The notes under the pieces: generated by a model
Seen by the model: only the letters and a program-made list of their open reading frames with translations
Database searches by the model: none
Told to the model about the DNA's origin: nothing
Shown: one piece after another, positions 13,185-46,558 of the stretch
How the letters are laid out: each line of letters begins with the position of its first letter
Numbering within the stretch: the stretch's first letter is position 1
Made by a program: the position numbers and the translations under genes
NCBI GenBank assembly: GCA_016208495.1
Contig: JACQXX010000052.1
Coordinates: 1-64,000, forward strand
DNA length: 64,000 nt
Direction of reading: 5' to 3'
Origin: Acidobacteriota bacterium
GTDB taxonomy: Bacteria > Acidobacteriota > Blastocatellia > Chloracidobacteriales > Chloracidobacteriaceae

Positions 13185-13271
13185 GAGGTCCCTTCCTTTT
13201 TCTGTTTGTAACAGTCAGTGCGGTCTTTTTTTCAACACTTCTTCATTTGCACGACTCACGACTGATTTGGA

Positions 13272-13676: not shown

Positions 13677-13789
13677 ATTCCCAGGTCTCCTCTCAACAGG
13701 TTCAAATCAAATCCTTTTTCTCGTACAATGTATTCAAAGGGTCAGTACAAAAGACTTTCTCAGCCTGTCTTCTTGAGCTTCAAAGGTTC

Positions 13790-15307: not shown

Positions 15308-15358
15308 ACATTTATGGGTCGGCAATCGGCGACCAATAACAAATAATTCGCGAAACAT

Positions 15359-17002
15359 ATTTAAATAGGGCGTGGCTACTTTGAGTTAAAACTCAAGCCG
15401 CCACTTTTTTTTTCAGTTTTTGGGACATCGGGCGACTGAACCGAAGGTCCATATAACCGAAGATGTTCCTGGGAACGATGAAAAGTCCAATATCGAGACC
15501 AGTCACCATTGAGAAAGACCGAGCGCAAATCAAGCATGGCTTGAGCGCCAGTCACGGTCCAGCGCATCCCGGCGCCGTCCATGCGGGTGACGATGAGTTG
15601 TTTGCAAGCCGATTCGACGGCCCCGGAACCAATCGGAAACCCGGCGCGCAAATACTGGTCATAGCGCATGCGGGAGCGGTTGGTGTCAAAATAAGCGATG
15701 ACTTTGTGAACCGTCTCGGTTTTGGACTTCCCGACGATGAGGCCGGTGGACAAACAATGGCGCAACTCATCAATGACGAGGCCGACCTGGCCGAGGAGAA
15801 AGCGGGATTCCTGGGCTTTGACCCAGGCGGTGGCCGCCTCCGAGCCTTCGGGCAAAAAGGTGTAGACGGCTTTCCACAGGTACTCGCGGGCGTGATGAAA
15901 GTCGAGAATTTCAACCGCGTACGGACAAATCTCGGCTTTGAGTCCCCACATCGCTGGTTGGCCATCGGCCAGAAACGCCACGGGGCGCCTGGCGCCGCCG
16001 CGCGCCTCAACCTGGTCTTTGAGAAAGGGCGTCAGCGTTGGTTTGGCTTCCAGTTCGGCAAAGATTTGTTTGTCGTGGGCCGCAATGTCCGGCAACTGGC
16101 CCGTCTCGGTGACCGATTCAAACCGATCCTGCTCCGCTACCGTGTACACCGTGGCCACCGTCGCCATTTTCTTCTTCTGGGCTTTCTCCCCTCGCTTGCG
16201 CCGGGTCGGGGTTTGGGCCAGTTCCTTTTTGGTCATTGGGATGCCTTTGCCGTCCGTACTCACCACGATACATTCCCCTTCGCCTGTCGCCTTCATCTTC
16301 GCCGGCGATTCATAAAAGCTTCTCACATCCTGGGCCGCCTCCACCGACATCACCTCCACCATCCGCTTTGGGATCTTCACTCCCAATTGTTCATTCAGCC
16401 ATTCGACGCTCGCCTCAAACGGCTCCACCACACTCAACCGCAACGCCCACTCCTCCAACTTTGGACTGTAACACCGCTTCGGGCGTCCCATCTTCTCATC
16501 CAGCGGCGCGACTCCCCCAGTCTCCTCACTCCAAAAATAGGCTCGCTCCACCTCGATTTCCCCAAAGATCGAGACATATCGATAGCTCCTCTGTCCGTGG
16601 TAGGGAATCTCTTTCCCGCCCTCCACCTCGATTGGCTCGATCCTTTCTTCTTCCATCCTTGCCGTCACCGACTGCTGCAGCAACGCTCGCCCCAACTTCA
16701 ATACCTCTTTGAAGATCGCGTTTTCAGTCTCTTCCACTGTCCCCTCCGCTCTTTGGCTGTACCTCACCAGGTTTTCAAAGATCGTTTGCGCTTCCATCAC
16801 TGCTGTTTCGTTCGTCACCAGATGCAATCCGCTCTGTTTTTTTGTATCTTTCATCGGGCTTTTCCTCCAAGATCCTTCGATTTTCTTTCATTTTCTCAAT
16901 CTTGCCGGGTTAAAGCCCTTTTTGTCACCTCTTTCACACTTTCAACACTCTATTTCTCAATTACTTACCTTTTAACTCAAAGTAGCCGCGCCCATTTAAA
17001 TA
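15359..17002 (-). mobile_element. Complete ISKra4-type insertion sequence with 9-bp target duplication
   Basis: The element spans 15368-16993 (1626 bp). Terminal inverted repeats of 24 bp (15368-15391 and 16970-16993) match at 23 positions and begin GGGCG(T/C)GGCTACTTTGAG. Both ends are flanked by the direct repeat ATTTAAATA (15359-15367 and 16994-17002), the footprint of insertion. One transposase gene fills it. The last codons of the transposase lie inside the left terminal repeat. Ends, duplication and reading frame are all intact, so the insertion looks recent. Confidence 0.93.
15376..16854 (-). CDS. ISKra4-family transposase
   Basis: 492-residue transposase. Candidate DDE residues are the Asp in VVSTDGKGI, the Asp in AFLADGQPAMW and the Glu in GSGAVESACKQ. 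The IGSGAVESACK...RMDGAGMRW block is characteristic of the ISKra4 group. The N-terminal third (about 60-200) holds the region with EIPYHGQRSYRYVSIFGEI that precedes the catalytic core in this family. The frame is complete with no stop or frameshift, so it is probably active. Base composition is higher in GC than the flanking genes, in line with arrival from elsewhere. A long reading frame on the opposite strand is a shadow of this gene. Confidence 0.95.
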   Translation of the reverse strand: MKDTKKQSGLHLVTNETAVMEAQTIFENLVRYSQRAEGTVEETENAIFKEVLKLGRALLQQSVTARMEEERIEPIEVEGGKEIPYHGQRSYRYVSIFGEIEVERAYFWSEETGGVAPLDEKMGRPKRCYSPKLEEWALRLSVVEPFEASVEWLNEQLGVKIPKRMVEVMSVEAAQDVRSFYESPAKMKATGEGECIVVSTDGKGIPMTKKELAQTPTRRKRGEKAQKKKMATVATVYTVAEQDRFESVTETGQLPDIAAHDKQIFAELEAKPTLTPFLKDQVEARGGARRPVAFLADGQPAMWGLKAEICPYAVEILDFHHAREYLWKAVYTFLPEGSEAATAWVKAQESRFLLGQVGLVIDELRHCLSTGLIVGKSKTETVHKVIAYFDTNRSRMRYDQYLRAGFPIGSGAVESACKQLIVTRMDGAGMRWTVTGAQAMLDLRSVFLNGDWSRYWTFHRSQEHLRLYGPSVQSPDVPKTEKKSGGLSFNSK

Positions 17003-30287: not shown

Positions 30288-30394
30288 TTATACCATTTTG
30301 CAATGGAATCATCGTACTAGAGAATATTCAAGTAATTCAATCAAATAGACTTAGTGAACTACTGACTACTGACTACTGACTACAAACTGGTATT
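30288..30394 (+). repeat. Dispersed repeat copy with ACTACTG heptamers, upstream of MoxR
   Basis: Contains TTATACCATTTTGCAATGG, then CAATCAAATAGACTTAGTGA, three ACTACTG heptamers and ACTACAAACTGGTATT directly before the ATG at 30395. The last phrase recurs reverse-complemented at about 47855-47875. The repeat therefore forms the whole leader of the MoxR gene. No Shine-Dalgarno is visible, so the promoter or start signal may be within it. Confidence 0.6.
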
Positions 30395-31546
30395 ATGACC
30401 AAACCACTGCCACACCCTGCCGCCATTGTCCGCCCACCGGCTGAGATCCTTTATGCTCAGGAACTCAATGCACTCGCCGTCAATGACAAATCCCCGAAAC
30501 CTCCTGGATGGAAGCTTTCGCCACGCATGGTCCGTGAATTCATCCTTGGGTCCGACGGCAAAGCCTATCGCCACACCTGGGACGGTCAGCCCACTGAAAC
30601 CGTCATCCAGGAAAAGTTTTATGGGGATGATGCCTTAATTGATCGGGCAATCATTACGCTGGCCGGAAATCGCGGGCTGCTGCTGGTGGGTGAACCCGGA
30701 ACCGCGAAATCCATGCTGTCTGAACTCCTCGCGGCTGCCATTTCTGGAACATCAACCAACACCATCCAGGGCACGGCGGGAACCACCGAAGATCACATCA
30801 AATACACCTGGAACTTTGCCCAACTTCTGGCCGAAGGCCCAAGCCTCCGGGCCCTGGTTCCGTCCCCGCTCTACACCGGGTTGAAAGAAGGCCGACTTGT
30901 CCGCTTTGAAGAAATCACCCGCTGCCCGCCTGAAATCCAGGATTCAATGGTGAGCATTCTTTCCGACAAGGTGCTGCATATTCCTGAACTCGACGAAGAA
31001 CACGCAGTACTTTTTGCCCGCAAAGGGTTTAACGTCATTGCCACCGCAAATTTACGCGACCGGGGCGTCAATGAAATGTCGAGCGCCCTCAAACGGCGAT
31101 TCAACTTTGAAACCGTCCATCCGATTGCCAGCAAAGACCTGGAGTTGAAATTGGTTCTGGAGCAAACCCAGCTTTTGCTCGCCGAAGCCGAAGCCGACGT
31201 TCAGATTGAAACCGATGTCATTGACCTGCTGGTGACGACGTTTCACGATCTACGCCAGGGCCGCACCGCCGAAGGCACCGCCGTGGAACGTCCCTCAACC
31301 GTGATGTCCACCGCGGAAGCCGTCTCGGTTGGATTGTCTGCCGGACTTGATGCCTGCTATTTCGGAGACGGCCAGCTTGCCCCTGAACACATCGCCCGCA
31401 ACCTGATTGGAACGGTTCTCAAAGACACCACGGAAGATGCCAAAAAACTCAAACATTACTTTGATGTGGTCGTCAAAGCCCGTGCCAAAAACAGTCCGCT
31501 GTGGGATCGGTATTTCCGAGCACACCGGTTTGGAATAAAGAATTGA
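30395..31546 (+). CDS. MoxR-type AAA+ ATPase (YehL-like)
   Basis: 383 residues. Walker A is GEPGTAKS (residues 99-106), Walker B is RFEEI in the LVRFEEITRCPP block, and sensor 1 is in ATANLRDRGVNEMSSALKRR with the likely arginine finger. MoxR ATPases work with VWA-domain partners to remodel or activate target proteins. The gene order that follows (DUF5682, VWA, SWIM) matches the E. coli yehL-yehM-yehP-yehQ families, so this is the YehL counterpart. It starts without a ribosome-binding site, just after a dispersed repeat. Its last two codons and stop (AAG AAT TGA) are part of another repeat (31538-31590). Confidence 0.92.
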   Translation: MTKPLPHPAAIVRPPAEILYAQELNALAVNDKSPKPPGWKLSPRMVREFILGSDGKAYRHTWDGQPTETVIQEKFYGDDALIDRAIITLAGNRGLLLVGEPGTAKSMLSELLAAAISGTSTNTIQGTAGTTEDHIKYTWNFAQLLAEGPSLRALVPSPLYTGLKEGRLVRFEEITRCPPEIQDSMVSILSDKVLHIPELDEEHAVLFARKGFNVIATANLRDRGVNEMSSALKRRFNFETVHPIASKDLELKLVLEQTQLLLAEAEADVQIETDVIDLLVTTFHDLRQGRTAEGTAVERPSTVMSTAEAVSVGLSAGLDACYFGDGQLAPEHIARNLIGTVLKDTTEDAKKLKHYFDVVVKARAKNSPLWDRYFRAHRFGIKN

Positions 31547-31669: not shown

Positions 31670-34102
31670 ATGCAAGATCAAATTCGCCTCATTGCCAATT
31701 CACTCTGGACTGATCGGCTGGTGTTTTTTCCAATCCGGCATCATAGCCCGGCATGTGCATGGCATCTCCAAAAATTGATTTACCAGGAAAAACCAGCCGC
31801 GATTTTGATTGAAGGCCCGGAAGACATCACACCACTGATTTCGACCTTGCTTGATCCACGAACCAAACCGCCCGTTGCGATTTACACCACGTTTGTGGAC
31901 CGGCGGCACTCGCCTGACGTTTCAGTTCCAGGCTTACCGGATGCGGGGCCGCCCCGGTTTGCTGGATTCTACCCATTTTGCGACTACACGCCGGAACTGG
32001 TGGCCTTGAAAGCTGGTCAACACGTCGGGGCCAAGCTCAGATTTATTGATTTGACCTTTCCTGAACAGATTCTGGCTGGAGCGAAACCGACTTCCCGTGC
32101 CCTGCTGGATGAAAGCGTTTTTCGACGAAGCATCTATCTGACCAGTCTGGCAAAACGCGCCGGGTGTCGTGACCACAACGAACTCTGGGACCACCTCTTT
32201 GAAGCGAACTTCCTTCAGCTTCCAGCCGATGTTTTTGTCAGAAATGTGGTCGGCTATTGCCTGATGGCACGCCAGGATTCATCCGCCGAGATGCTCCAGG
32301 CTGACGGCACGCTCACCCGTGAACAGGCCATGGCCGCCGCCATTGAGGAAGAACTGGTCCTCACGACCGGAAAAATTCTGGTCGTTACGGGTGGGTTTCA
32401 CACGGTGGTGCTCCCCAAACTGATCCAGCAGCCGGTCAAACGTCCCAAAAAGCCAAAACTGGCAGACGGTGACGCCCAAACAGTGGTGATGCGGTACAGC
32501 TTTGAACAACTCGACGCCCTCAACGGCTATGCCGCCGGAATGCCTTCGCCCAACTATTACCAGCAGTTTTGGAAACACCTCAACCCGGAACCCGGAACCC
32601 GGAACCCGGAACCCGGTATTGCAGTGGCTGCCCGGTTCCTGGTCGAAATTGGACGCCTGACCCACGAACACAATCGCCTGACGCCGATCTCGTCGGTTGA
32701 TGAAATCTCGGCACTGGCCCAGTCCCGGCAACTGGCCGGGTTTCGAGGACACACCAGCGGTCCAACCCGCGAAGACCTCCTCGACGGCATCCGGAGTTGC
32801 TTTGTGAAAGGCGCGATGGACACGGAAGGAAAACTCCTGCTTGAGACCGTGCAGAAACTTTTGACTGGGGATCAGATCGGTGACTTGCCGCCAACGGTTG
32901 GTGTTCCCCCGATTGTCGAAGACTTTCGCCGTGAAGCCGCCAGCTTACGGCTCAAGATTGGGGATTCCACGTCGAAATCAATCAGCCTGGATGTCTACCG
33001 GAAAAAAACGCATCGCCGGATAAGCCGGTTTTTCCATCGTTTGAAATTTCTTCAGGTGTTTTTTGCTCGATTGACAGCGGGACCGGATTTCGCCCGCGGG
33101 ACAGGTTTGGAACGACTTCAGGAACAGTGGGACTACCAGTGGACACCGCTGGCTGAAACGAAACTGGTCGAACAATCGCTCTTTGGCACCACGGTTGAAG
33201 AAGCCGCGCTCAACCTGCTGGTACAAACCATCAGTAATCTTGAAGCCGAAGGAAACTCACGAAGTGCCATCCAGGCCGTCCGCTTGCTGGTTGTGGCCTG
33301 TCAAATGGGCCTGCACCAGTCGGTTTCGCGTCTGCTGGCGCTGATTTCCGAAAATATTCACCAGGATCCGGATTTTTCTTCGCTGGTTGAAGCGTTGGAA
33401 CACTTGCTATTGCTCTGGCAATCGCGTGAACCACTCGAAGCACACCACCTGACGGTGTTGCCTGAGTTAAGTCAGGCCGCCTTTTACAAAGCCTGTTTTC
33501 TGATATCTGAACTGGCCGGTTGTCCTGCGGAAATGGCGCCAAACGTGGTGGACAGCCTGGCGTCACTGCGCGAACTGGTCAATTCCACGCCAGACCAGAT
33601 TTTGGATGAAACCCTGTTTTATTCAGCGCTGGAACCGATTCCCTTGAAGCCAGAGGGGAACCCGCTCGTGTCTGGCGGCGTGGTTGGAATTCTCTTCAGC
33701 GCCGGAAAAATGAACGAGTCAGCCGTGTTGAGTTTCGTCAGAGGATTTCTGGAAAGGGCTTCAGCCTCAACCAGCGATCAGATTGGCTTTCTGCAAGGAC
33801 TGCTGAAAACCTGCCGTGAAGCCGCCTGGAATCTTTCAGGGTTGCTCACACTGCTGGATGAATATCTGGCAGCCTGGAGCGAAGAAGATTTTTTAAGAAT
33901 CCTGCCCGAACTCCGGCTGTCGTTTGCCGATTTGACGCCGCGCGAAACTGACCGGGTGGCCGAAATGGTGGCTCACCTGCACGGCCAACCCCAACTCAAC
34001 CTGCCCGATACCCGAACTCTCTCTGAAGCAGCCCTCCGGTTTGGCTTACAACTCAATCAATTGATTCTGGAAAGCCTGCACAATGATGGATTGGGAGAAT
34101 GA
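31670..34102 (+). CDS. DUF5682-family protein (YehM-like)
   Basis: 810 residues. The N-terminal part has the family's conserved features: FPIRHHSPACAWHL at about 23-37, IEGPEDITPL, and a GGFHTVVLP element at about 240. The rest is helical with no obvious motifs. The family is one of the partners in MoxR-VWA gene sets and corresponds to E. coli YehM; its function is not settled. The reading frame contains 4.7 copies of the heptamer CCCGGAA (32584-32616), which codes for NPEPGTRNPEPG near residue 305. A length change by one heptamer would shift the frame, so this could be a switch. No Shine-Dalgarno at the usual distance; the start is chosen by length and conserved RHHSP position. Confidence 0.88.
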   Translation: MQDQIRLIANSLWTDRLVFFPIRHHSPACAWHLQKLIYQEKPAAILIEGPEDITPLISTLLDPRTKPPVAIYTTFVDRRHSPDVSVPGLPDAGPPRFAGFYPFCDYTPELVALKAGQHVGAKLRFIDLTFPEQILAGAKPTSRALLDESVFRRSIYLTSLAKRAGCRDHNELWDHLFEANFLQLPADVFVRNVVGYCLMARQDSSAEMLQADGTLTREQAMAAAIEEELVLTTGKILVVTGGFHTVVLPKLIQQPVKRPKKPKLADGDAQTVVMRYSFEQLDALNGYAAGMPSPNYYQQFWKHLNPEPGTRNPEPGIAVAARFLVEIGRLTHEHNRLTPISSVDEISALAQSRQLAGFRGHTSGPTREDLLDGIRSCFVKGAMDTEGKLLLETVQKLLTGDQIGDLPPTVGVPPIVEDFRREAASLRLKIGDSTSKSISLDVYRKKTHRRISRFFHRLKFLQVFFARLTAGPDFARGTGLERLQEQWDYQWTPLAETKLVEQSLFGTTVEEAALNLLVQTISNLEAEGNSRSAIQAVRLLVVACQMGLHQSVSRLLALISENIHQDPDFSSLVEALEHLLLLWQSREPLEAHHLTVLPELSQAAFYKACFLISELAGCPAEMAPNVVDSLASLRELVNSTPDQILDETLFYSALEPIPLKPEGNPLVSGGVVGILFSAGKMNESAVLSFVRGFLERASASTSDQIGFLQGLLKTCREAAWNLSGLLTLLDEYLAAWSEEDFLRILPELRLSFADLTPRETDRVAEMVAHLHGQPQLNLPDTRTLSEAALRFGLQLNQLILESLHNDGLGE
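32584..32616 (+). repeat. CCCGGAA heptamer array inside a coding sequence
   Basis: Four full copies plus five bases of CCCGGAA. Since 7 is not a multiple of 3, copy-number change would shift the frame of the DUF5682 gene. The same unit occurs at 45370-45402 just before the VWA gene; its reverse complement (TTCCGGG) differs by one base from the TTCAGGG unit of the arrays at 37683-37751 and 41600-41668. Confidence 0.85.
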
Positions 34103-34350: not shown

Positions 34351-37300
34351 ATGGAAATGACACGTCCTCACAACGTCAGCCAGAGTTGGGTGGTGAACTG
34401 GGTTTTCGTGATGGCACTGGTACTGGGTCCTTTTTTGATCTTTGTGGCCAGGGGGCAAAATGTTGACCAGTTGGAACCTGGAAAACTGGTCGTGCGCGAA
34501 TTGAAAGGCGGCGAAAAACACACCTATCCAATCTCGCTGAAAGCCAATGATTACCTGAAACTGGTGGTGAACCAGAAAGGGATTGATGTCGTGGTACGGC
34601 TCATTGGGCCGGATGGGAAGGTGGTTCAGGAAGTGAATAACCCCAATGGCACTCAGGGTGAAGAGCCATTTTTCTACATCACTGACCACATCGGCACCTA
34701 TATACTTGAGATTGAATCGCTGAAAAAAACGGCCCAGGCCGGCATCTATGAACTGAAATCAGAGTCCATCAAACCTGCCACTGAACAGGACCGTGCGGAA
34801 GTCGAGATCAAAAAACTGAATGACGAATTGACTCAACTGTGGCAAGCCGGAAAATATGATCAAGGAGTGCTCCTCGCACAACAGGCAGTGGAAAAGAGCG
34901 AACAACTCTTAGGCACAGACCATTCCCTGCTGGCTGACAGCCTCAACTATCTCGGTTTGTTCTATAAAGCCAAAGGTGAGTATCTGAAAGCCGAACCAGT
35001 CTATTTGCGCGCCATAGCAATTGGTGAAAAAACAATCGGCTTCGGCCACCCTCACATCGCGGCCATGCGCAATAACCTGGCAAACCTCTATGGTGCCAGG
35101 GGTGAGTATCTCAAAGCCAAAGAGGAACTTCAGCGCGCTTTAGATATTTTTGAGAAAACACTGGGGCCTGAACATCAAAACACGATCTTTTGTCTCAACA
35201 ATCTGGCTGAGCTGTATTTCAACCTGGGCGATACCACCAGCGCGGAACGTCTGTTCCGGCACACATTGGCCATTCGGGAAAAAGTGTTCGGTCCAGATCA
35301 TCCAACAACGGCAGATACACTCCAAAATTTGGCGTTTCTGCATCGCATCAAAAGCGAATATATCAAAGCAGAGGGGCTGTATCAGCGAGTTTTAACGACT
35401 CGTGAAAAAGCACTTGGCCCTGAACATCCTGAAACATCCAATGCCCTGAATGGTTTGGCTGAGGTGTATCGGGACCAGGGCAATCTGGCCAAAGCCGAAT
35501 CACTGCACCAACGCGCTTTGGCCATTCGTGAAAAAGTATTTGGTCCTGATCACATAGCTGTTGCCCGCAGCCTGAATAATCTTGGCTTGCTCTTTCGTGA
35601 CAAAGGGGATTTTGGAAAGGCGGAACAACTGCTGCTGCGATCTCAGGCAATCCGCGAGAAGAAATTGGGGATGGATCATCCTTCGATAGCCGTGGGATTC
35701 AACAATTTGGCGTTGATAGCCGAGCACAAAGGTGAGTATGCGCAGGCTGAATCGCTGTACCAGCGTGCCCTGGAAATCCAGGAAAAAGCGGTTGGTCAGC
35801 AACACCCAGATACGGCGCTGGCTCTCACTCACATTGCCAATCTCAACCGAATGAAGGGTGAATATGCAAAGGCTCAACACCAGCAGCAACAGGCACTGGC
35901 TATCTTTGAACGGGTCTATCAAACCGATCACCCAGATATTGCCTCTGGTCTCAATAACCTGTCTGGAATCTATCAAATCCAGGGCCAGATCGCTCAAGCC
36001 ATTCAATGTCAAATCCAAAGCAACGACATCACCGAACGCGATCTGGTCCGAAATCTCATCTCTGGCTCTGAACAACAAAAATCGCAATATCTGAAAAAAA
36101 CTGATCATTACACCAACCAAACCCTCTCGCTGCACCTCCAGGCGGCACCTCAGTCACCCGATGCAATGCGAGCCGCCCTGACGGTTGTCGTGCGGCGCAA
36201 AGGTCGCGCCCTTGATGCGCTGACAACGGCGATTGAAACCCTGCGCCGGCAACAAACGCCTGAAATTCAAAAACTCCTGGACGACTATGCCCGTCTGGCG
36301 GGTCAAATCTCAATTCTGACCTTGCGTGGACCTGAAACGAGAAAACTTGAAGAGCATCTGGCTTATCTGAAATTACTCAATGAAGAGCGGGAAAAACTGG
36401 AAAATGAGATCAGCCACAAAAGCCTGGAATTTCAAGCACAAACCACTCCCATTACCCTGGAAAACATTCAAAAACAGATTCCACTCAACGCTGTTTTGGC
36501 CGAGTTTGCAGTCTATACCCCCTATGATCCAAAAACTGACAAGCCTGGAACACCTCGGTTTGTGGTTTATGTATTGAATCATCAAGGGAAGATCCATTTT
36601 GCGGATTTAGGCGAAGCCGCCCCAATTGAAGAAGCCATATCAGCCTTTCGCAAAGTTTTGAGTAACCCAAAAACTGATCTGGTGAAAGATATCATCCCAG
36701 CGGCCAAACCTCTGAACCAGCTCGTCTTAAAGCCAGTACTCGCCTTAATCGGAAAAGCAAAACACTTGCTGATTTCACCAGATGGCGCATTGCAGGTCAT
36801 TCCATTTGCCGCGCTGATGGATGACAAGGGGAAATTTTTAACCAGGCAGTATACATTGACCTATTTAACCAGTGGACGTGACCTGTTACGACTGGCGGTG
36901 AAAATTGAGAGTCAGCAACCGCCGCTGATCGTCGCTGATCCAGATTATATGGATGGCACGGGTCCTCAAATGATGGGCCAAACCATCGGTCGGCTGATTC
37001 GGCTCATTGGAACTCGTGCTGAAGGCGAACAACTCAAAGCGATCTTACCGCATGCAAACCTCAAGACACGGTCTGACGCCACAGAGCAAGTGGTTAAACA
37101 GGTTTCGCGGCCTGGCCTGGTCCATATTGCCACCCACGGCTATTTTCTGGAAAATACCACCCAATCAGCCAGAGATCCGCTCTCAGATCACCCATCCAGG
37201 AATATTGTTAACCTGTCTCACTATTTCGAAAAAGAACGGCAAGCCAACCCCCTGCTCTGCTCCCTGCTGTTTTTTGCGGGTGCAAACCAGGGCGGTACGG

Positions 37301-37674
37301 AAGAAAACGACGGTGTGATGACGGCCCTTGAAGCCGCCCAGCTTAACCTCTGGGGTACCAAACTCGTCACGCTTTCCGCCTGTGACACAGGGCTTGGCGA
37401 AGTCAAAAACGGCGATGGTGTCTATGGGTTACGACGCGCCCTGGTCCTGGCTGGCAGTGAATCTCAACTGATGAGCCTCTGGCCGGTTTCCGATCAGGCA
37501 ACACGGGAACTGATGATTGATTACTACACCCGGCTCAAAACCGGTGAAGGCCGCTCCGAAGCCCTGCGCAATGTTCAACTCAAACTTCTCAAAACCCCAC
37601 GCCGTCAGCACCCCTTCTACTGGGCCTCGTTCATTCAATCCGGCGAATGGGCCAGTTTGGAAGGGAAACGGTGA
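34351..37674 (+). CDS. TPR-CHAT caspase-like protease, exported (kinesin-light-chain-type TPRs), first of three
   Basis: 1107 residues (the ATG at 34357 is the better-spaced start after AAAGG). Signal or anchor helix at about 14-34, PPC-like beta domain at about 40-140 (RELKGGEKHTYPISLKAND), then nine 42-residue TPRs of the kinesin-light-chain type from about 185 to 560, each ending near ALAIREK. A helical linker precedes the CHAT domain (about 690-1107). Catalytic His929 (HIATHGYFL) and Cys1011 (LSACDTGLG) are present. The last 310 bp are nearly identical to the next two CHAT genes. It stands between the DUF5682 and VWA genes of the MoxR set, in the same direction. TPR-CHAT proteins are known partners of conflict systems (for example Csx29), but this one appears to be exported. 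Confidence 0.92.
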   Translation: MEMTRPHNVSQSWVVNWVFVMALVLGPFLIFVARGQNVDQLEPGKLVVRELKGGEKHTYPISLKANDYLKLVVNQKGIDVVVRLIGPDGKVVQEVNNPNGTQGEEPFFYITDHIGTYILEIESLKKTAQAGIYELKSESIKPATEQDRAEVEIKKLNDELTQLWQAGKYDQGVLLAQQAVEKSEQLLGTDHSLLADSLNYLGLFYKAKGEYLKAEPVYLRAIAIGEKTIGFGHPHIAAMRNNLANLYGARGEYLKAKEELQRALDIFEKTLGPEHQNTIFCLNNLAELYFNLGDTTSAERLFRHTLAIREKVFGPDHPTTADTLQNLAFLHRIKSEYIKAEGLYQRVLTTREKALGPEHPETSNALNGLAEVYRDQGNLAKAESLHQRALAIREKVFGPDHIAVARSLNNLGLLFRDKGDFGKAEQLLLRSQAIREKKLGMDHPSIAVGFNNLALIAEHKGEYAQAESLYQRALEIQEKAVGQQHPDTALALTHIANLNRMKGEYAKAQHQQQQALAIFERVYQTDHPDIASGLNNLSGIYQIQGQIAQAIQCQIQSNDITERDLVRNLISGSEQQKSQYLKKTDHYTNQTLSLHLQAAPQSPDAMRAALTVVVRRKGRALDALTTAIETLRRQQTPEIQKLLDDYARLAGQISILTLRGPETRKLEEHLAYLKLLNEEREKLENEISHKSLEFQAQTTPITLENIQKQIPLNAVLAEFAVYTPYDPKTDKPGTPRFVVYVLNHQGKIHFADLGEAAPIEEAISAFRKVLSNPKTDLVKDIIPAAKPLNQLVLKPVLALIGKAKHLLISPDGALQVIPFAALMDDKGKFLTRQYTLTYLTSGRDLLRLAVKIESQQPPLIVADPDYMDGTGPQMMGQTIGRLIRLIGTRAEGEQLKAILPHANLKTRSDATEQVVKQVSRPGLVHIATHGYFLENTTQSARDPLSDHPSRNIVNLSHYFEKERQANPLLCSLLFFAGANQGGTEENDGVMTALEAAQLNLWGTKLVTLSACDTGLGEVKNGDGVYGLRRALVLAGSESQLMSLWPVSDQATRELMIDYYTRLKTGEGRSEALRNVQLKLLKTPRRQHPFYWASFIQSGEWASLEGKR

Positions 37675-37682
37675 GCCAAACC

Positions 37683-37810
37683 AGGGTTCAGGGTTCAGGG
37701 TTCAGGGGTCAGGGTTCAGGGTTCAGGGTTCAGGGTTCAGGGTTCAGGGTTTTCGAAACCAGGAACTAACCACTAACCACTAACCACTAAAGGGTTCAGG
37801 GTTCAGGGTT
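37683..37810 (+). repeat. TTCAGGG heptamer arrays and TAACCAC units
   Basis: About ten heptamers with one GGGGTC variant (37683-37751), then a short TAACCACTAACCAC stretch (37768-37789) and again two TTCAGGG units (37792-37810). This lies between the stop of one CHAT gene and the leader of the next. The same array returns after the next CHAT gene. Confidence 0.9.
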
Positions 37811-37888
37811 TTCGAGTGTTTGCCCCTTTTTGTCCGTTCAGTCCTTTTCGTCCTTTCTTGCTTTTCCCAACCGCCACTGGAGATCACA

Positions 37889-40800
37889 ATGACGCATCCC
37901 CATCGTTTGAGCCACAGCCTGGCTTTCAATTGTTTTTTGGCCCTGATACTGCTGAATCCCTTTTTCATCGGTGTGACGGTGGCGCAGACGGCTCAACCTT
38001 CAAAAACCCCGAAACCTGGAAAACCGGTTGTGCGCGAGTTGAAAGGCGGCGACAAACACCGGTACCCGCTGCAGCTCAAAGCCAACGATTATCTAAAACT
38101 GGTCGTGGAGCAACGCGGGATTGATGTGGCGGTTCGACTGGTTGGACCAGATGGAAAACTATTGCAGGAGGTGGACGGTCCAAACGGCACACAAGGCGCA
38201 GAACCGCTTTCCTGTGTCACCGACATAGCCGGTAGCTACACGTTGGAGATTGAGGCGTTGAAAAAAACAGCTTCACCGGGCAGGTATGAATTGACATTGC
38301 AGGCGGTGAGACCTGCCACCAGCCAGGAACGTGCCGGGAGAGAGATCGAAAAACTGATTTCCGAAGCAGACACACTTCGGCGAGCCGGAAAACTTGATCA
38401 GAGCTTGCCACTTGCCCAACAAGCCGTGGAAAAGAGCGAGACCGCTTTGGATTCAGAGCATTCGCTTCTGGTCGGGAGCCTCTTTGTCCTGGCCCGGATC
38501 TACAGTGGTCAGGCGAAGTTCAAGCAGGCCGAACCGCTGTACCTGCGGGCACTGGCCATTTTGGAAAAAACGTTGGGGGCCGACCAGTTGCAGGTGGCAA
38601 CCATCCTCAACCATCTGGGCAGTCTCTACCAAAAAACCGGCAACTATCCGCGAGCCGAACCACTGTTCCAGCGGGAACTTGCCATCTGGGAGAAATCGCT
38701 TGGTCCCGATCACCCCAATGTCGCCATCAGCCTCAATAACCTCGGCAGCCTTTACCAGAGAACCGGCGACTATGCACGAGCCGAACCACTGCTCCAGCGG
38801 GCACTGGCCATCCGAAAGAAATCGCTTGGTCCTGAGCACCTGAGTGTCGCCGAAACCCTCAACAATCTGGCTGTGCTTTACTCGAATAAAGGCGACTACT
38901 CACAAGCCGAAACCCTGTATCAACAATCGCTGGCCATCCAGGAGAAAGTCCTGGGCCCTGACCATCCCAATGTCGCCAACAGCCTCAACAATCTGGCGCT
39001 CCTTTACTGGGACAAAGGCGATTACCGGCAGGCTGAGTCCCTGTACCAGCGGACACTGGCCATCCAGGAGAAAACATTGGGCTCTAACGATCCCAATGTC
39101 GCTTTCAGCTTCAACAATCTGGCCACACTCTACCAGAACAAAGGCGATTACCGGCAGGCTGAGTCCCTGTACCAGCGGGCGTTAGCTATTTGGGAGAAAG
39201 CTCTGGGCCCTGACCATCCGAAGGTCGGCCTCTGCCTCAATAATCTGGGTTTGCTTTACAACACCAAAGGCGACTACCAGCGAGCCGAGCCGCTTTTCCA
39301 ACGGGCGCTGGCCATCCAGGAGAAAGCGCTTGGTCCCAATCACCCAGAGGTTGCCACGAGCCTCAACAACCTGGCGGCGCTCTACTGGGATAAAGGCGAC
39401 CGCCAGCGAGCCGAACCGCTTTTCCAACAGGCGCTGGACATTCAGGAAAAAGTTCTTGGCCCTGACCATCGGGAAACAGCCCGAAGCCTCAACAATCTGG
39501 GCGTGCTCTATTCAAACAAAGACGACTACCAGCGAGCTGAACCATTGCTTCAGCGGGCGCTGGTCATCCAGGAGAAAGTGCTCGGTGCCGATCATCCAGA
39601 GGTCGCTCAGTCCTTCAACAACCTGGCCGGGGTCTATCGCGGAAAAGGTGACACCCAGAAAGCCGAATTCTTTTTCAAGCAGGCACTGGCGATCTTGGAG
39701 AAAGCATTTGGCCCGGATCATCCACAACCGGCCAGTGTCCTCAACAGTTTGGCGGTCCTCTCTCAAATCGGGGGCGATTATGCCAGGGCCGAACCCCTCT
39801 TTCAGCGGGCGCTGGCCATTCGGGAAAAAACCCTGGGTCTGGATCATCCGGATGTTGCCCAAACCCTCAACAATTTATCCAAACTCTATCGAGACAAAGG
39901 CGATATGGCACAGGGGATTCAATTTCAGATTCGGGGCAATGACGCCGTCGAGCGTGATTTGATCCGCAACCTTCTCTCAGGATCTGAAAACCAGAAAATT
40001 CTCTATCTCAAAAAAACGAGCGCATTCACCGATCAAACCCTTTCCCTGCATCTGCAGTCCGCGCCTCAATCTGTTGAGGCCAGGCAGGCGGCGTTCACCG
40101 TGTTGCTGCGACGCAAAGGCCGGGGACTGGATGCCATGGCTTCGGCAATTGAAACATTGCGGCAGCAACAAACACCTGAAGTTCAGAAATTGCTTGATGA
40201 TCTGGCGAATCTGGTTGATCAAATTTCAGTTTTGACGTTGAAAGGACCAGGAAAGCAGAAACCGGATGAACATCTGGCCTACTTGAAAGAACTCGAAGCC
40301 CAAAAAGAAAAACTCGAAGCCCAAATCAGTGCCAAAAGTGCTGAGTATCAAGTTCAGGGTACCCCAATCACCCTCGAAAACATTCAGCCGCAAATTCCTG
40401 CCGATGGGATGCTGGTTGAGTTTGCTTTTTACCTCCCTTTTAACCCCACGACCAGAAAACTGGGCGCTTCACGATGTGCGGTCTATACCCTGGACCACCT
40501 TGGCGACATCAAGTGGGCCGATTTAGGCGAAGCCACACCAATTGAACAGGCGGTGTCAGCCTTTTGCCGGGTGGTCAGCAAACCGAAGGCTGACCTGGCC
40601 CAAGACATCACGCCAGCCGCCCAGGCGCTGGATAAACTCATCATGAAGCCGGTGCGGGCGCTGGTGGGAAAGAGCCGTCATCTGCTGATTTCGCCAGACG
40701 GCATGTTGAATTTGATTCCCTTTGCGGCGCTGATGGATGAAAAAAGAAAATTCCTGGTGGAAACCTACACCTTGACCTATCTTACCAGCGGACGCGACTT

Positions 40801-41590
40801 GCTCCGACTCCAAAACGGCATCAAAAACGAACACCCGCCGTTGATCATGGGGAATCCGGATTATGCCGACGGAAATGGACCACAGATTTTTGGACATCAG
40901 TTTCCCCGGCTGGACCGGTTGATTGGGACGGCAGCCGAAGCCCAGCAACTCAAATCCATTTTTCCCGACGCCTCGGTTTTTCTGGGTGACCAGGCGACCA
41001 AAGCTGTCCTGACTCAGGTTCACCGACCTGAGTTTGTCCATATCGGAACCCACGGATTCTTTTTTGCCGGGGACCAACCTGACCGAGTGGCAGATGCGCC
41101 GTCACGACACCTGCTCAGATCGGATGATGCCTCAGCCGACCTGGAGAAAATCCAGGCGGAAAACCCGCTGCTGCGCTCCTATCTCTTCTTTGCCGGGGCC
41201 AACCACACGGGAAGTAAAAACCAGGACGGCATCCTGACCGCCCTTGAAACCACCACCCTCGACCTGTGGGGCACCAAACTGGTCACACTCTCGGCCTGCG
41301 ACACGGGTCTTGGCGACGTCAAAAACGGCGACGGGGTCTATGGGTTACGACGTGCCCTGGTCCTGGCCGGCAGTGAATCCCAAATGATAAGTCTCTGGTC
41401 AGTCTCAGACCAGGCCACACGCGAGTTGATGGTAGACTACTATACCCGGCTCAAAGCTGGTGAAGGCCGCTCCGAAGCCCTGCGCAACGTGCAACTCAAA
41501 ATGCTCAAAACCCCACGCCGCCAGCATCCTTTCTACTGGGCCTCATTCATTCAATCCGGCGAATGGGCCACTCTGGCGGGGAAACGGTGA
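37889..41590 (+). CDS. TPR-CHAT caspase-like protease, exported, second of three (12 TPRs)
   Basis: 1233 residues. I start at 37889 and not 37820 because the sequence then begins with a signal peptide (MTHPHRLSHSLAFNCFLALI, cut near VTVAQT) and has GGAG in the leader that is shared with the third copy. PPC-like domain at about 45-150, twelve 42-residue TPRs from about 190 to 695, and CHAT at about 850-1233 with His1055 (HIGTHGFF) and Cys1137 (LSACDTGLG). TPR number is higher than in the first (9) and third (11) copies. Two units (39005-39055 and 39131-39181) are near identical over the last third, which shows recent duplication within the array. Confidence 0.93.
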   Translation: MTHPHRLSHSLAFNCFLALILLNPFFIGVTVAQTAQPSKTPKPGKPVVRELKGGDKHRYPLQLKANDYLKLVVEQRGIDVAVRLVGPDGKLLQEVDGPNGTQGAEPLSCVTDIAGSYTLEIEALKKTASPGRYELTLQAVRPATSQERAGREIEKLISEADTLRRAGKLDQSLPLAQQAVEKSETALDSEHSLLVGSLFVLARIYSGQAKFKQAEPLYLRALAILEKTLGADQLQVATILNHLGSLYQKTGNYPRAEPLFQRELAIWEKSLGPDHPNVAISLNNLGSLYQRTGDYARAEPLLQRALAIRKKSLGPEHLSVAETLNNLAVLYSNKGDYSQAETLYQQSLAIQEKVLGPDHPNVANSLNNLALLYWDKGDYRQAESLYQRTLAIQEKTLGSNDPNVAFSFNNLATLYQNKGDYRQAESLYQRALAIWEKALGPDHPKVGLCLNNLGLLYNTKGDYQRAEPLFQRALAIQEKALGPNHPEVATSLNNLAALYWDKGDRQRAEPLFQQALDIQEKVLGPDHRETARSLNNLGVLYSNKDDYQRAEPLLQRALVIQEKVLGADHPEVAQSFNNLAGVYRGKGDTQKAEFFFKQALAILEKAFGPDHPQPASVLNSLAVLSQIGGDYARAEPLFQRALAIREKTLGLDHPDVAQTLNNLSKLYRDKGDMAQGIQFQIRGNDAVERDLIRNLLSGSENQKILYLKKTSAFTDQTLSLHLQSAPQSVEARQAAFTVLLRRKGRGLDAMASAIETLRQQQTPEVQKLLDDLANLVDQISVLTLKGPGKQKPDEHLAYLKELEAQKEKLEAQISAKSAEYQVQGTPITLENIQPQIPADGMLVEFAFYLPFNPTTRKLGASRCAVYTLDHLGDIKWADLGEATPIEQAVSAFCRVVSKPKADLAQDITPAAQALDKLIMKPVRALVGKSRHLLISPDGMLNLIPFAALMDEKRKFLVETYTLTYLTSGRDLLRLQNGIKNEHPPLIMGNPDYADGNGPQIFGHQFPRLDRLIGTAAEAQQLKSIFPDASVFLGDQATKAVLTQVHRPEFVHIGTHGFFFAGDQPDRVADAPSRHLLRSDDASADLEKIQAENPLLRSYLFFAGANHTGSKNQDGILTALETTTLDLWGTKLVTLSACDTGLGDVKNGDGVYGLRRALVLAGSESQMISLWSVSDQATRELMVDYYTRLKAGEGRSEALRNVQLKMLKTPRRQHPFYWASFIQSGEWATLAGKR

Positions 41591-41599
41591 GCCAAATCA

Positions 41600-41668
41600 G
41601 GGTTCAGGGTTCAGGGTTCAGGGTTCAGGGTTCAGGGTTCAGGGTTCAGGGTTCAGGGTTCAGGGTTC
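41600..41668 (+). repeat. TTCAGGG heptamer array
   Basis: About 9.8 uninterrupted copies of a 7-bp unit (GGTTCAG in phase) just after the second CHAT gene. It can be read through in the frame of the third CHAT gene, which makes a false N-terminal extension of VQGSGFR repeats. Arrays flanking the genes could have promoted the tandem duplication. Confidence 0.92.
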
Positions 41669-41715
41669 TCCTTTTCGTCCGTTCTTGCTTTTCCCAACCA
41701 CCACCGGAGATCACA

Positions 41716-44700
41716 ATGATACATTCTCGCATATTGCACAAAAGACTGGGTTTAATCTGTTTTTTGGTGCTGATGCTGGCAGCGGGTCCTTTTTTGACCT
41801 TTGTGACCGAGGCGCAAAGCAGGAACCAGTTGGAACCCGGAAAATCAGTTGTGCGCCAGCTCAAAGGCGGCGAAAAACACACCTATCTGCTCCAACTTAA
41901 AGCCAATGATTATCTGAATCTGGTCGTCAACCAAAAAGGAATTGATGTCGTGGTGCGGTTGCTTGGACCGGAGGAAAAAGTAGTTCAAGAAGTTGACAGC
42001 CCCAATGGTACCCAGGGCCAAGAACCACTTTCCTACCTCACTGAAACCGCGGGGAGATTTGTACTGGAAATTGAATCGCTGGAAAAAACCGCCCAGGCTG
42101 GGGAGTACCAACTGAACCTGGAAACCCTGAGAACGGCCACTGAGCAAGATCGGGCGGTGGTGGAGATCGAGAACCTGAACTCGGAAGTTCAAAAACTTCA
42201 GCAAGCTGGAAAATACGATCAAGGATTGCCGCTCGCCCAACACGCAGTGGAACAGAGTGAAAAAAAACTGGGACCGGAGCACCCGCTTGTGGAAGAAAGC
42301 CTCAACACCCTGGCTCTGTTCTACCATGCCAAAGGTCAATACCAGCAGGCCGAGCCTGTGTATCGGCGTGCGCTGGCCATTTGTGAAAAAGCACTCGGTC
42401 CTGACCACCCGCAAATGGCGACGATCCTCAACAACCTGGCTCGACTCTACCAGGAAAAAGGCGATTACCAGCAGGCCGAACCCCTCTATCGGCGATCTCT
42501 GGCCATTTATGAAAAGGCATTTGGCCCTGACCACTTTGAGACAGCCACCATCCTCAACAATCTGGCACTGCTTTCCCAGGAAAAAGGCGATTACCAGCAG
42601 GCTGAACCCCTCTATCGGCGATCTCTGGCCATCTATGAGAAAACACTTGGTCCCAACCATCTCAATGTCGCCTACAACCTCAATAATCTGGCTGCATTTT
42701 ATCAAACCAAAGGCGATTTCCGGCAGGCTGAGCCATTCTATCAGCGGGCAGTGGCCATTTTTGAAACCATGCTGGGAGCCGACCACCCGGTAACGGCCCA
42801 AAGCCTTAACAATCTGGCGACACTTTATGCTGGAAAGGGTGACTATGCCCAGGCGGAACGCCTCTATGCGCGGGCGCTGGCGATTCGTGAAAAAGTACTG
42901 GGCGAGAATCATCCACAGGTTGCCGATAGCCTCAACACCCTGGCGTTCCTTTACGACACCAAGGGTGACTACGCCCAGGCGGAACGCCTCTATACGCGGG
43001 CTCTGGCGATTCGTGAAAAAGTATGGGGTGCCACCCACCCATCGGTCGCCAATAGCCTCAATAACCTGGCGGCACTCTACGTCAACAAAGGCGATGACGA
43101 AAAGGCTGAACCGTTGTTCCAGCGTTCCCTGGCCATCCGTGAGAAAGTGCCGGGTCCTGACCATTCGGATACGGCCTTTAGCCTCAATAACCTGGCCCAG
43201 CTCCACCACCGTCGAGGTGACTACCAGAAGGCCGAACCATTGTATCAGCGTTCCCTGGCCATCTGGAAAAAAGCATTTGGTCCCGACCACCCGCTTGTTG
43301 CCAACAGTCTCAACAACCTGGCCTCGCTCGCCAAAGCCAAAGGCGATTTCCAGACGGCTGAAGCCCTGTACCGCCGGTCGTTGGCAATTCGTGAGAAAGC
43401 ACTTGGCCCTGACCACCCGGATGTGGCCGAAAGCCTCAACAACCTGGCGGCGGTGAACTTGGATAAAGGAGACTATGCCCAGGCCGAACCATTATTTCAG
43501 CGAGCACTGGCCATCCGTGAGAAAGGGCTTGGCCCTGATCACCCGGACGTGGCCCTCAACCTCAGCAATCAGGCGGTCCTTGCTCGTGCCAAAGGAGATA
43601 TGGCACAGGCCATTCAGTTTCAAATTCGGTGCAACAACACCAGTGAGCAAGACCTGAGGCGCAACCTTGCGGCGGGCTCCGAAACTCAGAAAGCGTTCTA
43701 TCTCAAACAAACCACGCATTACACTGACCAAACTATTTCACTCCATCTGCAAAGTGCACCGCACTCATTGGCGGCGAGGAAGGCGGCCCTGACCGTGGTA
43801 CTGCGTCGGAAAGGTCGTTCCCTGGATGCCATGACGACCACGATTGAAACACTCAGACACCACCAAACACCTGAGATTCAAAAACTGCTGGATGACTTTG
43901 CGAGCCTGGTCGGCCAAATTTCGGTGTTGACATTGAGAGGACCAGGAACCCAAAAAGCGGAAGATCATCTGGCCTACCTGAAAGAGTTAGAAACCCAGAA
44001 AGAAAAACTGGAAGCTGAAATCAGCCTCAAAAGCGCCGAATTCAAAGCCCAGGTTACATCTATCACTCTGGAAACCATTCAAAAACAAATTCCGGCGGAT
44101 GGTGTGTTGGTCGAATTCACGTACTATCAGGGTTCTGATTCCAAAACAAAAATTGTTGGATCCCCCCGGCTGGCCGTCTATACCTTGAATCAGGCGGGTG
44201 ACGTCCAGTGGGCCGATTTAGGCGAAGCAGCCCCAATTGAACAGGCAGTGTCAGCCTTGCGCAAGGTATTGAGCAATCCCAAAGTCAACTTGATGACTGA
44301 CATCAAACCTGCGGCTCAGGCACTCGACAGGCTGGTGATGAAGCCAGTCCGGAAGCTGGTCGGAAATACCAGACATTTGCTGATTTCACCGGATGGAATG
44401 TTGAATGTGATTCCGTTTGCAGCTCTCCTGGATGAGCGAGGAAAGTTTTTGGTGGAGAATTACACCATCACGTATTTAACCAGCGGGCGGGATTTACTTC
44501 GATTGGAAGTAAAAATTGAGGCGAAAGACCACCCGCTCGTGGTGGCGGATCCAGAATATGGAGACGGAGTCGGACCACAGATGAGGGGATATCTGATTGG
44601 TCGGTTAACACGGCTTCCTGGCACCCGAATTGAGGGACAACAACTGAAAGACATCTTTCCCGATGCCGACTTGAAAATGACAGCCGACGCGACGGAAAGC

Positions 44701-45282
44701 AAATTGAAACAGACCAGCAGGCCGGAACTCCTCCACATTGCCACTCACGGGTATTTTCTGGAAAGCGCCACAGAAGAGTCGGCGGCCAATCACACCCCAG
44801 CCGTTGCCCAGATGGAAAATCAAAAATTTGATGTTGAAAAATTAAGGGCCAGCAATCCCCTTCTGCGCTCGTGGTTGTTTTTTACTGGGGCCAATCAGCG
44901 GGGCGACGAGAACAACGACGGCGTGATGACGGCACTTGAAGCCGCCCAGCTCAACCTCTGGGGCACGAAACTGGTCACACTTTCTGCCTGTGACACGGGA
45001 CTTGGCGACGTCAAAAACGGCGATGGCGTCTATGGCCTGCGCCGGGCGCTGGTCCTGGCCGGAAGTGAAGCTCAACTGATGAGCCTCTGGCCGGTTTCCG
45101 ATCAGGGAACGCGCGAGTTGATGGTAGACTACTATACCCGGCTCAAAGCCGGTGAAGGCCGCTCCGAAGCCTTGCGCAACGTGCAATTAAAGATGCTCAA
45201 AACCCCACGCCGCCAGCACCCTTTCTACTGGGCCTCGTTCATTCAATCCGGCGAATGGGCCAACCTGAAGGGGAAAAGGTGA
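41716..45282 (+). CDS. TPR-CHAT caspase-like protease, exported, third of three (11 TPRs)
   Basis: 1188 residues from the start at 41716. The frame is open back to 41563, but that adds heptamer-coded repeats and overlaps the previous gene; the leader before 41716 matches the leader before 37889 almost base for base, including GGAGATCACA. Signal peptide (MIHSRILHKRLGLICFLVLM), PPC-like domain, eleven 42-residue TPRs (about 190-655), and CHAT with His1011 (HIATHGYFL) and Cys1092 (LSACDTGLG). TPR units at 42452-42508 and 42578-42634 are nearly identical and 126 bp apart. The 3' end is nearly identical to the other two copies. Confidence 0.93.
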   Translation: MIHSRILHKRLGLICFLVLMLAAGPFLTFVTEAQSRNQLEPGKSVVRQLKGGEKHTYLLQLKANDYLNLVVNQKGIDVVVRLLGPEEKVVQEVDSPNGTQGQEPLSYLTETAGRFVLEIESLEKTAQAGEYQLNLETLRTATEQDRAVVEIENLNSEVQKLQQAGKYDQGLPLAQHAVEQSEKKLGPEHPLVEESLNTLALFYHAKGQYQQAEPVYRRALAICEKALGPDHPQMATILNNLARLYQEKGDYQQAEPLYRRSLAIYEKAFGPDHFETATILNNLALLSQEKGDYQQAEPLYRRSLAIYEKTLGPNHLNVAYNLNNLAAFYQTKGDFRQAEPFYQRAVAIFETMLGADHPVTAQSLNNLATLYAGKGDYAQAERLYARALAIREKVLGENHPQVADSLNTLAFLYDTKGDYAQAERLYTRALAIREKVWGATHPSVANSLNNLAALYVNKGDDEKAEPLFQRSLAIREKVPGPDHSDTAFSLNNLAQLHHRRGDYQKAEPLYQRSLAIWKKAFGPDHPLVANSLNNLASLAKAKGDFQTAEALYRRSLAIREKALGPDHPDVAESLNNLAAVNLDKGDYAQAEPLFQRALAIREKGLGPDHPDVALNLSNQAVLARAKGDMAQAIQFQIRCNNTSEQDLRRNLAAGSETQKAFYLKQTTHYTDQTISLHLQSAPHSLAARKAALTVVLRRKGRSLDAMTTTIETLRHHQTPEIQKLLDDFASLVGQISVLTLRGPGTQKAEDHLAYLKELETQKEKLEAEISLKSAEFKAQVTSITLETIQKQIPADGVLVEFTYYQGSDSKTKIVGSPRLAVYTLNQAGDVQWADLGEAAPIEQAVSALRKVLSNPKVNLMTDIKPAAQALDRLVMKPVRKLVGNTRHLLISPDGMLNVIPFAALLDERGKFLVENYTITYLTSGRDLLRLEVKIEAKDHPLVVADPEYGDGVGPQMRGYLIGRLTRLPGTRIEGQQLKDIFPDADLKMTADATESKLKQTSRPELLHIATHGYFLESATEESAANHTPAVAQMENQKFDVEKLRASNPLLRSWLFFTGANQRGDENNDGVMTALEAAQLNLWGTKLVTLSACDTGLGDVKNGDGVYGLRRALVLAGSEAQLMSLWPVSDQGTRELMVDYYTRLKAGEGRSEALRNVQLKMLKTPRRQHPFYWASFIQSGEWANLKGKR

Positions 45283-45288
45283 TTTTGG

Positions 45289-45402
45289 GGTTCGGGGTTC
45301 GGGGTTCAGGGTTCAGGGTTCTCGAATTTATGTCCTTTCTGTCTTTTTTTGCCCCGTTCGTCTTTTTCAAACCCGGAACCCGGAACCCGGAACCCGGAAC
45401 CC
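45289..45402 (+). repeat. Heptamer arrays upstream of the VWA gene
   Basis: TTCGGGG/TTCAGGG units at 45289-45322, a CT-rich track, then CCCGGAA units at 45370-45402, ending four bases before the VWA start at 45407. They leave no room for a Shine-Dalgarno. Confidence 0.85.
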
Positions 45403-45406
45403 AACT

Positions 45407-46558
45407 ATGAATGACCAAACCCTCCACCGCTGGCGATTGATCCTGGGGCGCTATTCCCAGGACCAGCTTTCATGCCAGATGAATCAGCACCAAAGCCGGC
45501 TCGAACGGGCCCTCGATTATCTCTATTCACGCGAATACACCGGACGTGGTGTTCGCCAGACTGATGAAAGCCAACCCGCTCCGACTCAATCCAAACCAGC
45601 CGGGTCACTTGATCCAAGCCAGTTCAACGTCCCCACGTGGCTCAACGAAGTCCGCGAACTCTTCCCGCACGACACCTGTGAACTGATTGAAAAACACGCG
45701 CTTACTCGCTACGGCCTGACCGAACTGGTCACCGACCCTCAGGTGTTGGAAAAACTTGAACCCAATCTGGACCTGCTCAAAATGATTCTGACCTTTCGCG
45801 GTCAAATGAAAGGTCAGGTGTTAGAGGTCGCCCGCAAAATCGTCCGGCAGGTGATCGAAGACATCAAACGCAAGCTTGAGGCCGATATCCGGTTGAAACT
45901 GCTTGGGAAACTCAATCGGTTTCAGGCTTCCCCACTCAAAATTGCTCAAAACCTGGACTGGCGAGGCACCATCCGGCGCAACCTCAAGCACTATGATCCA
46001 GAGCGGAAAAAGCTGCTGATTCAACAGGTTCGCTTCTTCTCACGCGTTGAACGACACTTGCCCTGGACCGTGATTTTGTGCGTTGATCAAAGCGGAAGCA
46101 TGGTTGGGTCAGTCATTCACAGCGCCGTCATGGCTGGAATTTTGGCTGGGCTCCCAGCCGTAAAAGTTCATCTGGTCGTGTTTGACACGTCGGTGGTTGA
46201 TTTGACTGACCGCGCCGATGACCCGGTTGAAACTCTGATGAGTGTCCAGCTTGGCGGCGGAACCGACATCGGTCAGGCACTCCACTACTGTGAACAACTG
46301 GTGGACATTCCCCATCGAACGGTGCTGGTTCTGGTCAGTGATTTTGCCGAAGGGGCTTCGCCAACTGAGTTGCTTGCCGTCAGTCGCCGACTTCGGGAAG
46401 CTGGCGTGTTGACACTTGGTCTGGCTTCGCTGGATGAACAGGCCAACCCGTTTTACGACCACGAAATGGCCAATCAGTTAGCCGAAACCGGTATGCACAT
46501 CGCCGCCATGACACCCACCCATCTGGCCGAATGGCTGGCCAAACGAATGAAGAATTGA
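45407..46558 (+). CDS. VWA-domain protein (YehP-like), MoxR partner
   Basis: 383 residues without a signal peptide. Residues about 220-383 form the VWA domain with a complete metal site: DQSGS (Asp227, Ser229, Ser231), then GGGTDIGQAL and VLVSDFAEG. The N-terminal 210 residues are helical with many charged residues. This kind of protein is the adapter of MoxR ATPases and corresponds to E. coli YehP. The start follows a heptamer array directly, and the end (AAG AAT TGA) is in the dispersed repeat also found at the end of MoxR. It lies 124 bp downstream of the third CHAT gene. Confidence 0.9.
   Translation: MNDQTLHRWRLILGRYSQDQLSCQMNQHQSRLERALDYLYSREYTGRGVRQTDESQPAPTQSKPAGSLDPSQFNVPTWLNEVRELFPHDTCELIEKHALTRYGLTELVTDPQVLEKLEPNLDLLKMILTFRGQMKGQVLEVARKIVRQVIEDIKRKLEADIRLKLLGKLNRFQASPLKIAQNLDWRGTIRRNLKHYDPERKKLLIQQVRFFSRVERHLPWTVILCVDQSGSMVGSVIHSAVMAGILAGLPAVKVHLVVFDTSVVDLTDRADDPVETLMSVQLGGGTDIGQALHYCEQLVDIPHRTVLVLVSDFAEGASPTELLAVSRRLREAGVLTLGLASLDEQANPFYDHEMANQLAETGMHIAAMTPTHLAEWLAKRMKN

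Follow-up and report, generated by a model that had tools for sequence, protein, structure and literature searches.

The coding sequence of a DUF5682 gene in an Acidobacteriota genome carries a short tandem repeat with a unit of seven nucleotides, and the question is whether this array serves as a phase-variation switch or is an insert that the protein tolerates. The window analyzed here comprises the first 64,000 nucleotides of contig JACQXX010000052.1, and its features are collected in Table 1. The array is a perfect period-7 run of 35 nt and starts at codon 305, in phase 0, of the 810-residue ORF. A preliminary description had recorded 4.7 copies of CCCGGAA at 32584-32616, near codon 305; these coordinates denote the same run minus its two leading bases. 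The run is far beyond chance: over 2000 codon shuffles, period-7 runs in the gene reached at most 17 nt, against the 35 nt observed.

Table 1. Genes and heptamer arrays of the analyzed window.
Feature	Position	Strand	Evidence or remarks
MoxR-type AAA ATPase gene	30395..31546	+	PF07728, E 1.5e-36; bpMoxR (PF20030) slightly under cut-off
DUF5682 gene, 810 aa, relative of E. coli YehM	31670..34102	+	PF18934, E 3.6e-99; plasmid matches annotated yehM / DUF5682
AACCCGG x 5.0 array	32582..32616	+	Encodes NPEPGTRNPEPG, residues 305-316; inter-helix loop in AlphaFold model
TPR-CHAT gene between DUF5682 and VWA genes	34351..37674	+	PF12770 and TPR families
Second TPR-CHAT gene	37820..41590	+	ORF; aligns with other TPR-CHAT proteins; start uncertain, our own caller favors 37937
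Third TPR-CHAT gene	41763..45282	+	PF12770 (on 41563-45282); start near 41763 from our own caller
VWA_CoxE gene, third member of the MoxR-DUF5682-VWA set	45407..46558	+	PF05762, E 1.4e-51
Intergenic ACTACTG x 3.7 array	30358..30383	+	11 nt upstream of MoxR start
Intergenic CAGGGTT x 10 array	37682..37751	+	Between TPR-CHAT genes
TCAGGGT x 10.3 array	41597..41668	+	Between TPR-CHAT genes
Intergenic AACCCGG x 4.7 array	45370..45402	+	4 nt upstream of VWA start at 45407

The DUF5682 protein matches PF18934 with 333.5 bits against a curated cut-off of 26, and the MoxR AAA, DUF5682, and VWA genes lie together on one strand. Three TPR-CHAT genes (34351-45282) separate the DUF5682 gene from its VWA partner; the longest ORF of the third begins at 41563 and runs through an array. 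The window also contains a tmRNA gene on the minus strand (60272-60632; Rfam RF00023). Among 561 PDB matches in the search for fold neighbors of the DUF5682 protein, none had E <= 0.001, the search for viral homologs gave none, and our literature search found no paper on DUF5682.

Translation in silico shows that the frame is kept with 2, 5 or 8 AACCCGG units. With four units a stop appears at codon 328 and with six at codon 346, about 40-43% of the protein length, in agreement with the earlier statement that one unit more or less truncates the protein at about 40%. The array shares with contingency loci an in-ORF unit that is not a multiple of 3 and whose change in number truncates the protein, although it lies at codon 305 of 810 and not at the 5' end or in a promoter. 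From these features the preliminary description proposed a phase-variation switch for a MoxR system. Heptamer slippage would turn DUF5682, and hence the MoxR-VWA module, ON or OFF. The precedent is neuO of E. coli K1, whose coding sequence contains a proven heptanucleotide switch (PMC13001214). We consider a selected switch at this array unlikely, for the array sits in mid-gene and has only five units, and the evidence given below on its loop and on other genes also stands against it. On the bottom strand, each of the five units carries a GGG tract, the feature that bears on possible G-quadruplex formation by G-rich heptamers. The single-strand secondary-structure fold of the array was unremarkable (z -0.31), and the promoter scan of the DUF5682 gene gave no signal exceeding shuffles.

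The position of the array in the protein points to a tolerated insert. In an AlphaFold model built from eight sequences (mean pLDDT 83.9), residues 305-314 lie between two helices (294-304 and 315-333), and the length of this inter-helix loop differs among 18 aligned family members. Because of this helix-flanked position and the length variation in the family, the array is best seen as inserted into a loop whose length varies naturally, which argues against a switch. The preliminary description had named an ordinary NPEPG insert of the family at this site as a result that would speak against switching, and this was nearly what was found, since the loop varies in length throughout the family. 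The closest ortholog, from another genus and 58% identical, is without the array and four residues shorter at the site, and a Verrucomicrobia relative has a long Pro/Ala-rich insert in the loop without a heptamer run. No internal stop was present in any of the 17 DUF5682 matches among relatives.

Heptamers also occur in other members of the family. Six of the 15 DUF5682 genes of the class, at least one of which is partial, have in-ORF period-7 runs of at least 18 nt: three in the genome studied here and one each in the genomes G052, G026, and G034. The unit is AATCCAA in G052 and AATCTCA in G026 and G034, and all three runs are in frame in a second variable loop. Three-unit AATCCAA has 37 matches in G052, one of them in the DUF5682 gene, and three-unit AATCTCA has 10 matches in G026 and 3 in G034. 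None of the seven DUF5682 genes of more distant relatives has a period-7 run of at least 18 nt. The recurrence of heptamer runs in DUF5682 genes of several genomes therefore suggests that the variable loops of the family acquire heptamers repeatedly, with different heptamers taken up in several genera.

The array belongs to a large population of repeats. For the genome-wide survey we used a sample of 2.27 Mb, comprising 120 fetched stretches of the genome and the window, with genes from our own hexamer-based caller; perfect repeats of at least three copies were counted, and periods 2 to 15 were compared. The sample contained 385 arrays of period 7, whereas period 8 had 72 and no other period more than 12, a strong period-7 excess across the genome of the kind that marks dispersed heptamer SSRs. 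The octamer arrays, the second commonest period, include AAGGTGAC and ACAGGGTG. Although the coding fraction of the sample is 0.83, only 27 of the 385 heptamer arrays are within predicted genes; the other 358 are outside, and the placement of the population is mainly intergenic and at gene ends. In the first 824 kb of the sample, 33 distinct heptamer units were found. Our literature search found no report on heptanucleotide tandem repeats in Acidobacteria.

The unit of the DUF5682 array is itself abundant, as the preliminary description had noted for intergenic regions of the gene set; AACCCGG recurs just before the VWA start. Three-unit CCCGGAA has 291+283 matches in the 8.38-Mb genome (overlapping matches counted). 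The same query was found in 4 of 118 relatives including the genome itself, with at most seven matches in any other. Across 396 genomes of the phylum, six contained four-unit CCCGGAA, and none besides this one had more than three matches.

Two features of the population concern its placement and flanks. Array starts overlap or lie within 10 nt after stop codons in 70 of 331 cases, against a null of 21.4, and arrays are mildly enriched 10-19 nt before gene starts (25 against 14.7). Of 133 AACCC(T/G/C)G arrays, 39 have the palindrome TTCGAA no more than 14 nt from one of their ends, for example at 1127-1217 of L065; control windows gave 17 of 733, and ACTACTG arrays 0 of 81.

Unit number changes at other loci of this genome. 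When array pairs matching at both flanks were compared, the difference was always of whole units: 0, 7, 14, and 21 nt in 9, 20, 9, and 3 of 41 pairs. Additionally, a dispersed, near-identical element is present in 20 copies: a genome-wide search allowing gaps of up to 33 nt gave 17, and the sample added three that are longer. Units of CCCTGAA number 1.0, 2.7, 3.7, 4.7, and 5.7 in 1, 3, 7, 6, and 3 of the copies, respectively. Among the 19 copies with the full 101-nt core there are 22 pairs without substitutions, and 17 of these differ in unit number; the comparison was ungapped, which inflates the mean of 8.7 substitutions per pair, and only zero-substitution pairs were used. Since unit number varies among otherwise matching copies, slippage is plausible, as had been proposed before, on evidence from loci and units other than the DUF5682 array. 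The changes elsewhere may have arisen through replication slippage or while the element spread.

The element is about 160-200 nt long, with some shorter copies, and carries two oppositely oriented heptamer arrays; the genome has at least 20 copies of it (L175-L191, plus copies in L051, L113, and L125). It had no Rfam match at two loci, L178 and L186, and offers a natural ruler for unit-number change.

This lability would favor the switch. Two further explanations were considered. NPEPG codons could have given two units by chance, followed by an old expansion to five that became fixed and is now unchanging. Two units by themselves do encode NPEPG in frame, a similar stretch, gaacccggaacc, encodes part of the nucleotide-binding loop in the neighboring MoxR gene, and no unit change is seen at the DUF5682 site in the single genome available. 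We nevertheless judge such a stable loop improbable, as the repeat is perfect across 35 nt without third-position drift and heptamers elsewhere in the genome vary between copies with identical flanks. The unit number could also be an assembly or sequencing error in a draft genome of 177 contigs; however, the array is shorter than usual reads and the frame is intact on either side, which makes an error very improbable.

Arrays inside other genes show which heptamers are kept in coding sequence. The sample has 12 mid-gene arrays in six genes, which encode DUF5682, Lnt, a Trans_reg_C-PD40 protein, two TPR-CHAT proteins, and one long repetitive protein. The Lnt array lies in frame between LNT_N (27-183) and CN_hydrolase (280-559), and that of the Trans_reg_C-PD40 protein in frame between its domains. 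In the two TPR-CHAT genes, AACCCGG-type inserts occupy a shared hairpin loop before the CHAT domain (15600-15774 of L144 and 2269-2293 of L164), whereas six paralogs, including the three of the window, have no insert there. With 2 of 21 against 4 of 1447, TPR-CHAT genes are over-represented as hosts of mid-gene arrays (post hoc Fisher p 0.0028). A switch is unlikely in Lnt, an essential protein of many Gram-negative bacteria, and the similar insert in a protein not expected to be switched off weakens the case for switching in DUF5682.

In 11 of the 12 mid-gene arrays the unit is free of stops in the coding orientation, and the twelfth has 3.0 units. Of the 34 arrays of AACCCGG, a unit without a stop in any of the six frames, 6 are mid-gene; for AACCCTG, stop-free on one strand, the count is 2 of 80, against 0 of 81 for ACTACTG and 0 of 38 for AACCACT, both with stops on both strands.

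Frame was assessed by homology, with 1750 predicted proteins compared with 450 nt on either side of each array of period 7, 8 or 9. Homology on both sides was found for six arrays in four genes, all in one frame, and for none with the sides in different frames, small numbers from a test that reaches few genes, namely those with homologs in hand. This count omits matches to repeat peptides only and predicted proteins made only of repeats (C28 37704, C116 117939, and L099 2472). Three apparent homology matches spanning arrays beyond predicted genes proved on inspection to have the array just outside a gene. Genes split at arrays were also sought in the 10 closest co-directional pairs and the candidates were rejected, for each member with a Pfam match has its own family or a complete copy of the family of its neighbor.

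All the gene-internal arrays examined are thus in frame, whereas 42 of 64 neuO genomes are OFF (PMC13001214). This contrast speaks against free switching, though on small numbers. With a mid-gene array, a variable loop, and no OFF allele in the array-bearing genes examined, the proposal of a phase-variation switch for this MoxR system does not hold up well.

Some results favor switching: all three DUF5682 genes of the genome have in-ORF arrays, two of them near the start. The second gene (L059, ORF 11785-15459) encodes DUF5682 fused to VWA and has a separate MoxR gene next to it, and AACCCGG x 9.6 (11822-11888) lies at the 5' end of its ORF, directly before the first conserved motif. In nine other aligned DUF5682 genes, including the ortholog of the window gene, an ATG lies 8-32 codons before this motif. 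In L059 the usable starts lie upstream of the array: the GTG at 11785 is in frame at the present unit number; one unit fewer would bring the ATG at 11769 into frame, and one more would leave neither start in frame. A GTG immediately before the motif is in frame whatever the unit number, but its use would lose the first strand. To judge from its sequence, the L059 array is more plausibly a phase-switch candidate than that of the window gene.

The third gene (L026, ORF 967-3447), with a MoxR gene upstream, has 111 nt of heptamers at 1003-1113, after codon 12. They form a higher-order unit of 21 nt: identity is 0.94 when measured at period 21 but 0.77 at period 7. Such a unit is frame-neutral, and the array therefore reads as a record of frame-preserving growth, which argues against switching. 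The upstream MoxR gene of L026 is itself followed by an array, TAGAGGA x 9.9, at 529-597.

In-gene arrays occur at 0.0143 per coding kb, at which rate the two remaining DUF5682 genes would both have one with a probability of 0.0018 (length-normalized, post hoc); the array load of DUF5682 exceeds the expectation of 1.4% from the per-gene rate. Because all three genes bear arrays, above the per-gene rate, tolerance is perhaps not the whole story. Heptamer arrays might systematically diversify or switch DUF5682, the middle protein of the MoxR-VWA module, in this lineage, with L059 possibly a three-state locus, a reading that we hold to be doubtful. Off-frame numbers at the 5'-proximal arrays, if they are real, would give MoxR-DUF5682-VWA modules a testable switch.

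For the window gene, the array is probably a slippage-prone, frame-filtered insert in a loop of DUF5682, one of the many heptamers of this genome, and we infer no programmed switching. It would be a coding-sequence member of the large heptamer population, in which units are gained and lost as wholes, a behavior seen at other loci that the DUF5682 array presumably shares. Most arrays would persist solely between genes, and survival within a gene under selection would require a unit without stops in the reading direction, a number that keeps the frame, and a site in a loop, linker or tail. Two or five units would fit the inter-helix loop of DUF5682, each step of three units adding seven residues, and the array would therefore act as a tolerated, length-variable insert of NPEPGTR repeats. 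Slippage here would expose the gene to frameshift nulls, and selection would presumably purge the off-frame forms. A phase-variable gene caught ON and a tolerated insert look alike. As a tolerated insert, the case shows how a repeat-flooded genome keeps non-triplet repeats in conserved genes, with stop-free units, frame-compatible numbers, and loops.

The comparison with known systems begins with the gene set. E. coli YehM is a DUF5682 homolog, with 28% identity across 92% of the query, and yehL and yehP are presumably the MoxR and VWA partners of yehM. The arrangement differs from the yehM operon of E. coli in the three TPR-CHAT genes between DUF5682 and VWA.

Arrays in DUF5682 are a known sort of repeat, unusually concentrated in a single protein family. 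Like the neuO array (PMC13001214), the DUF5682 array has a 7-nt unit in coding sequence, full length needs the right remainder by 3, and three units make seven residues. However, the neuO array lies at the 5' end with 3-53 units, whereas that of DUF5682 has five units in mid-gene, in one genome, with no OFF form seen. The G-rich heptamers of Xanthomonas and Nostoc resemble the present population in their many arrays, mainly intergenic and near gene ends, with variable unit number, and their authors judge phase variation unlikely (PMC4692102). Their units are GGGNATC and GGGGA(C/T)T, whereas the genome studied here has many different units and in-frame arrays in conserved genes. In Beggiatoaceae (PMC4679880), TAACTGA arrays likewise lie mostly beside genes, with some in ORFs, limited by the stop codons of the unit; those in ORFs are mainly at protein ends, whereas several here are in mid-protein loops or linkers. 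In Borgs (PMC9879509), fast-evolving tandem repeats similarly become in-frame, probably disordered protein segments. Their in-ORF units are all multiples of 3, whereas the DUF5682 unit is 7 nt and the frame is kept by unit number. On this analysis, the closest precedents would be neuO for how a switch looks, the Xanthomonas/Nostoc and Beggiatoaceae repeats for what the arrays are, and the Borg repeats for what in-frame repeats become.
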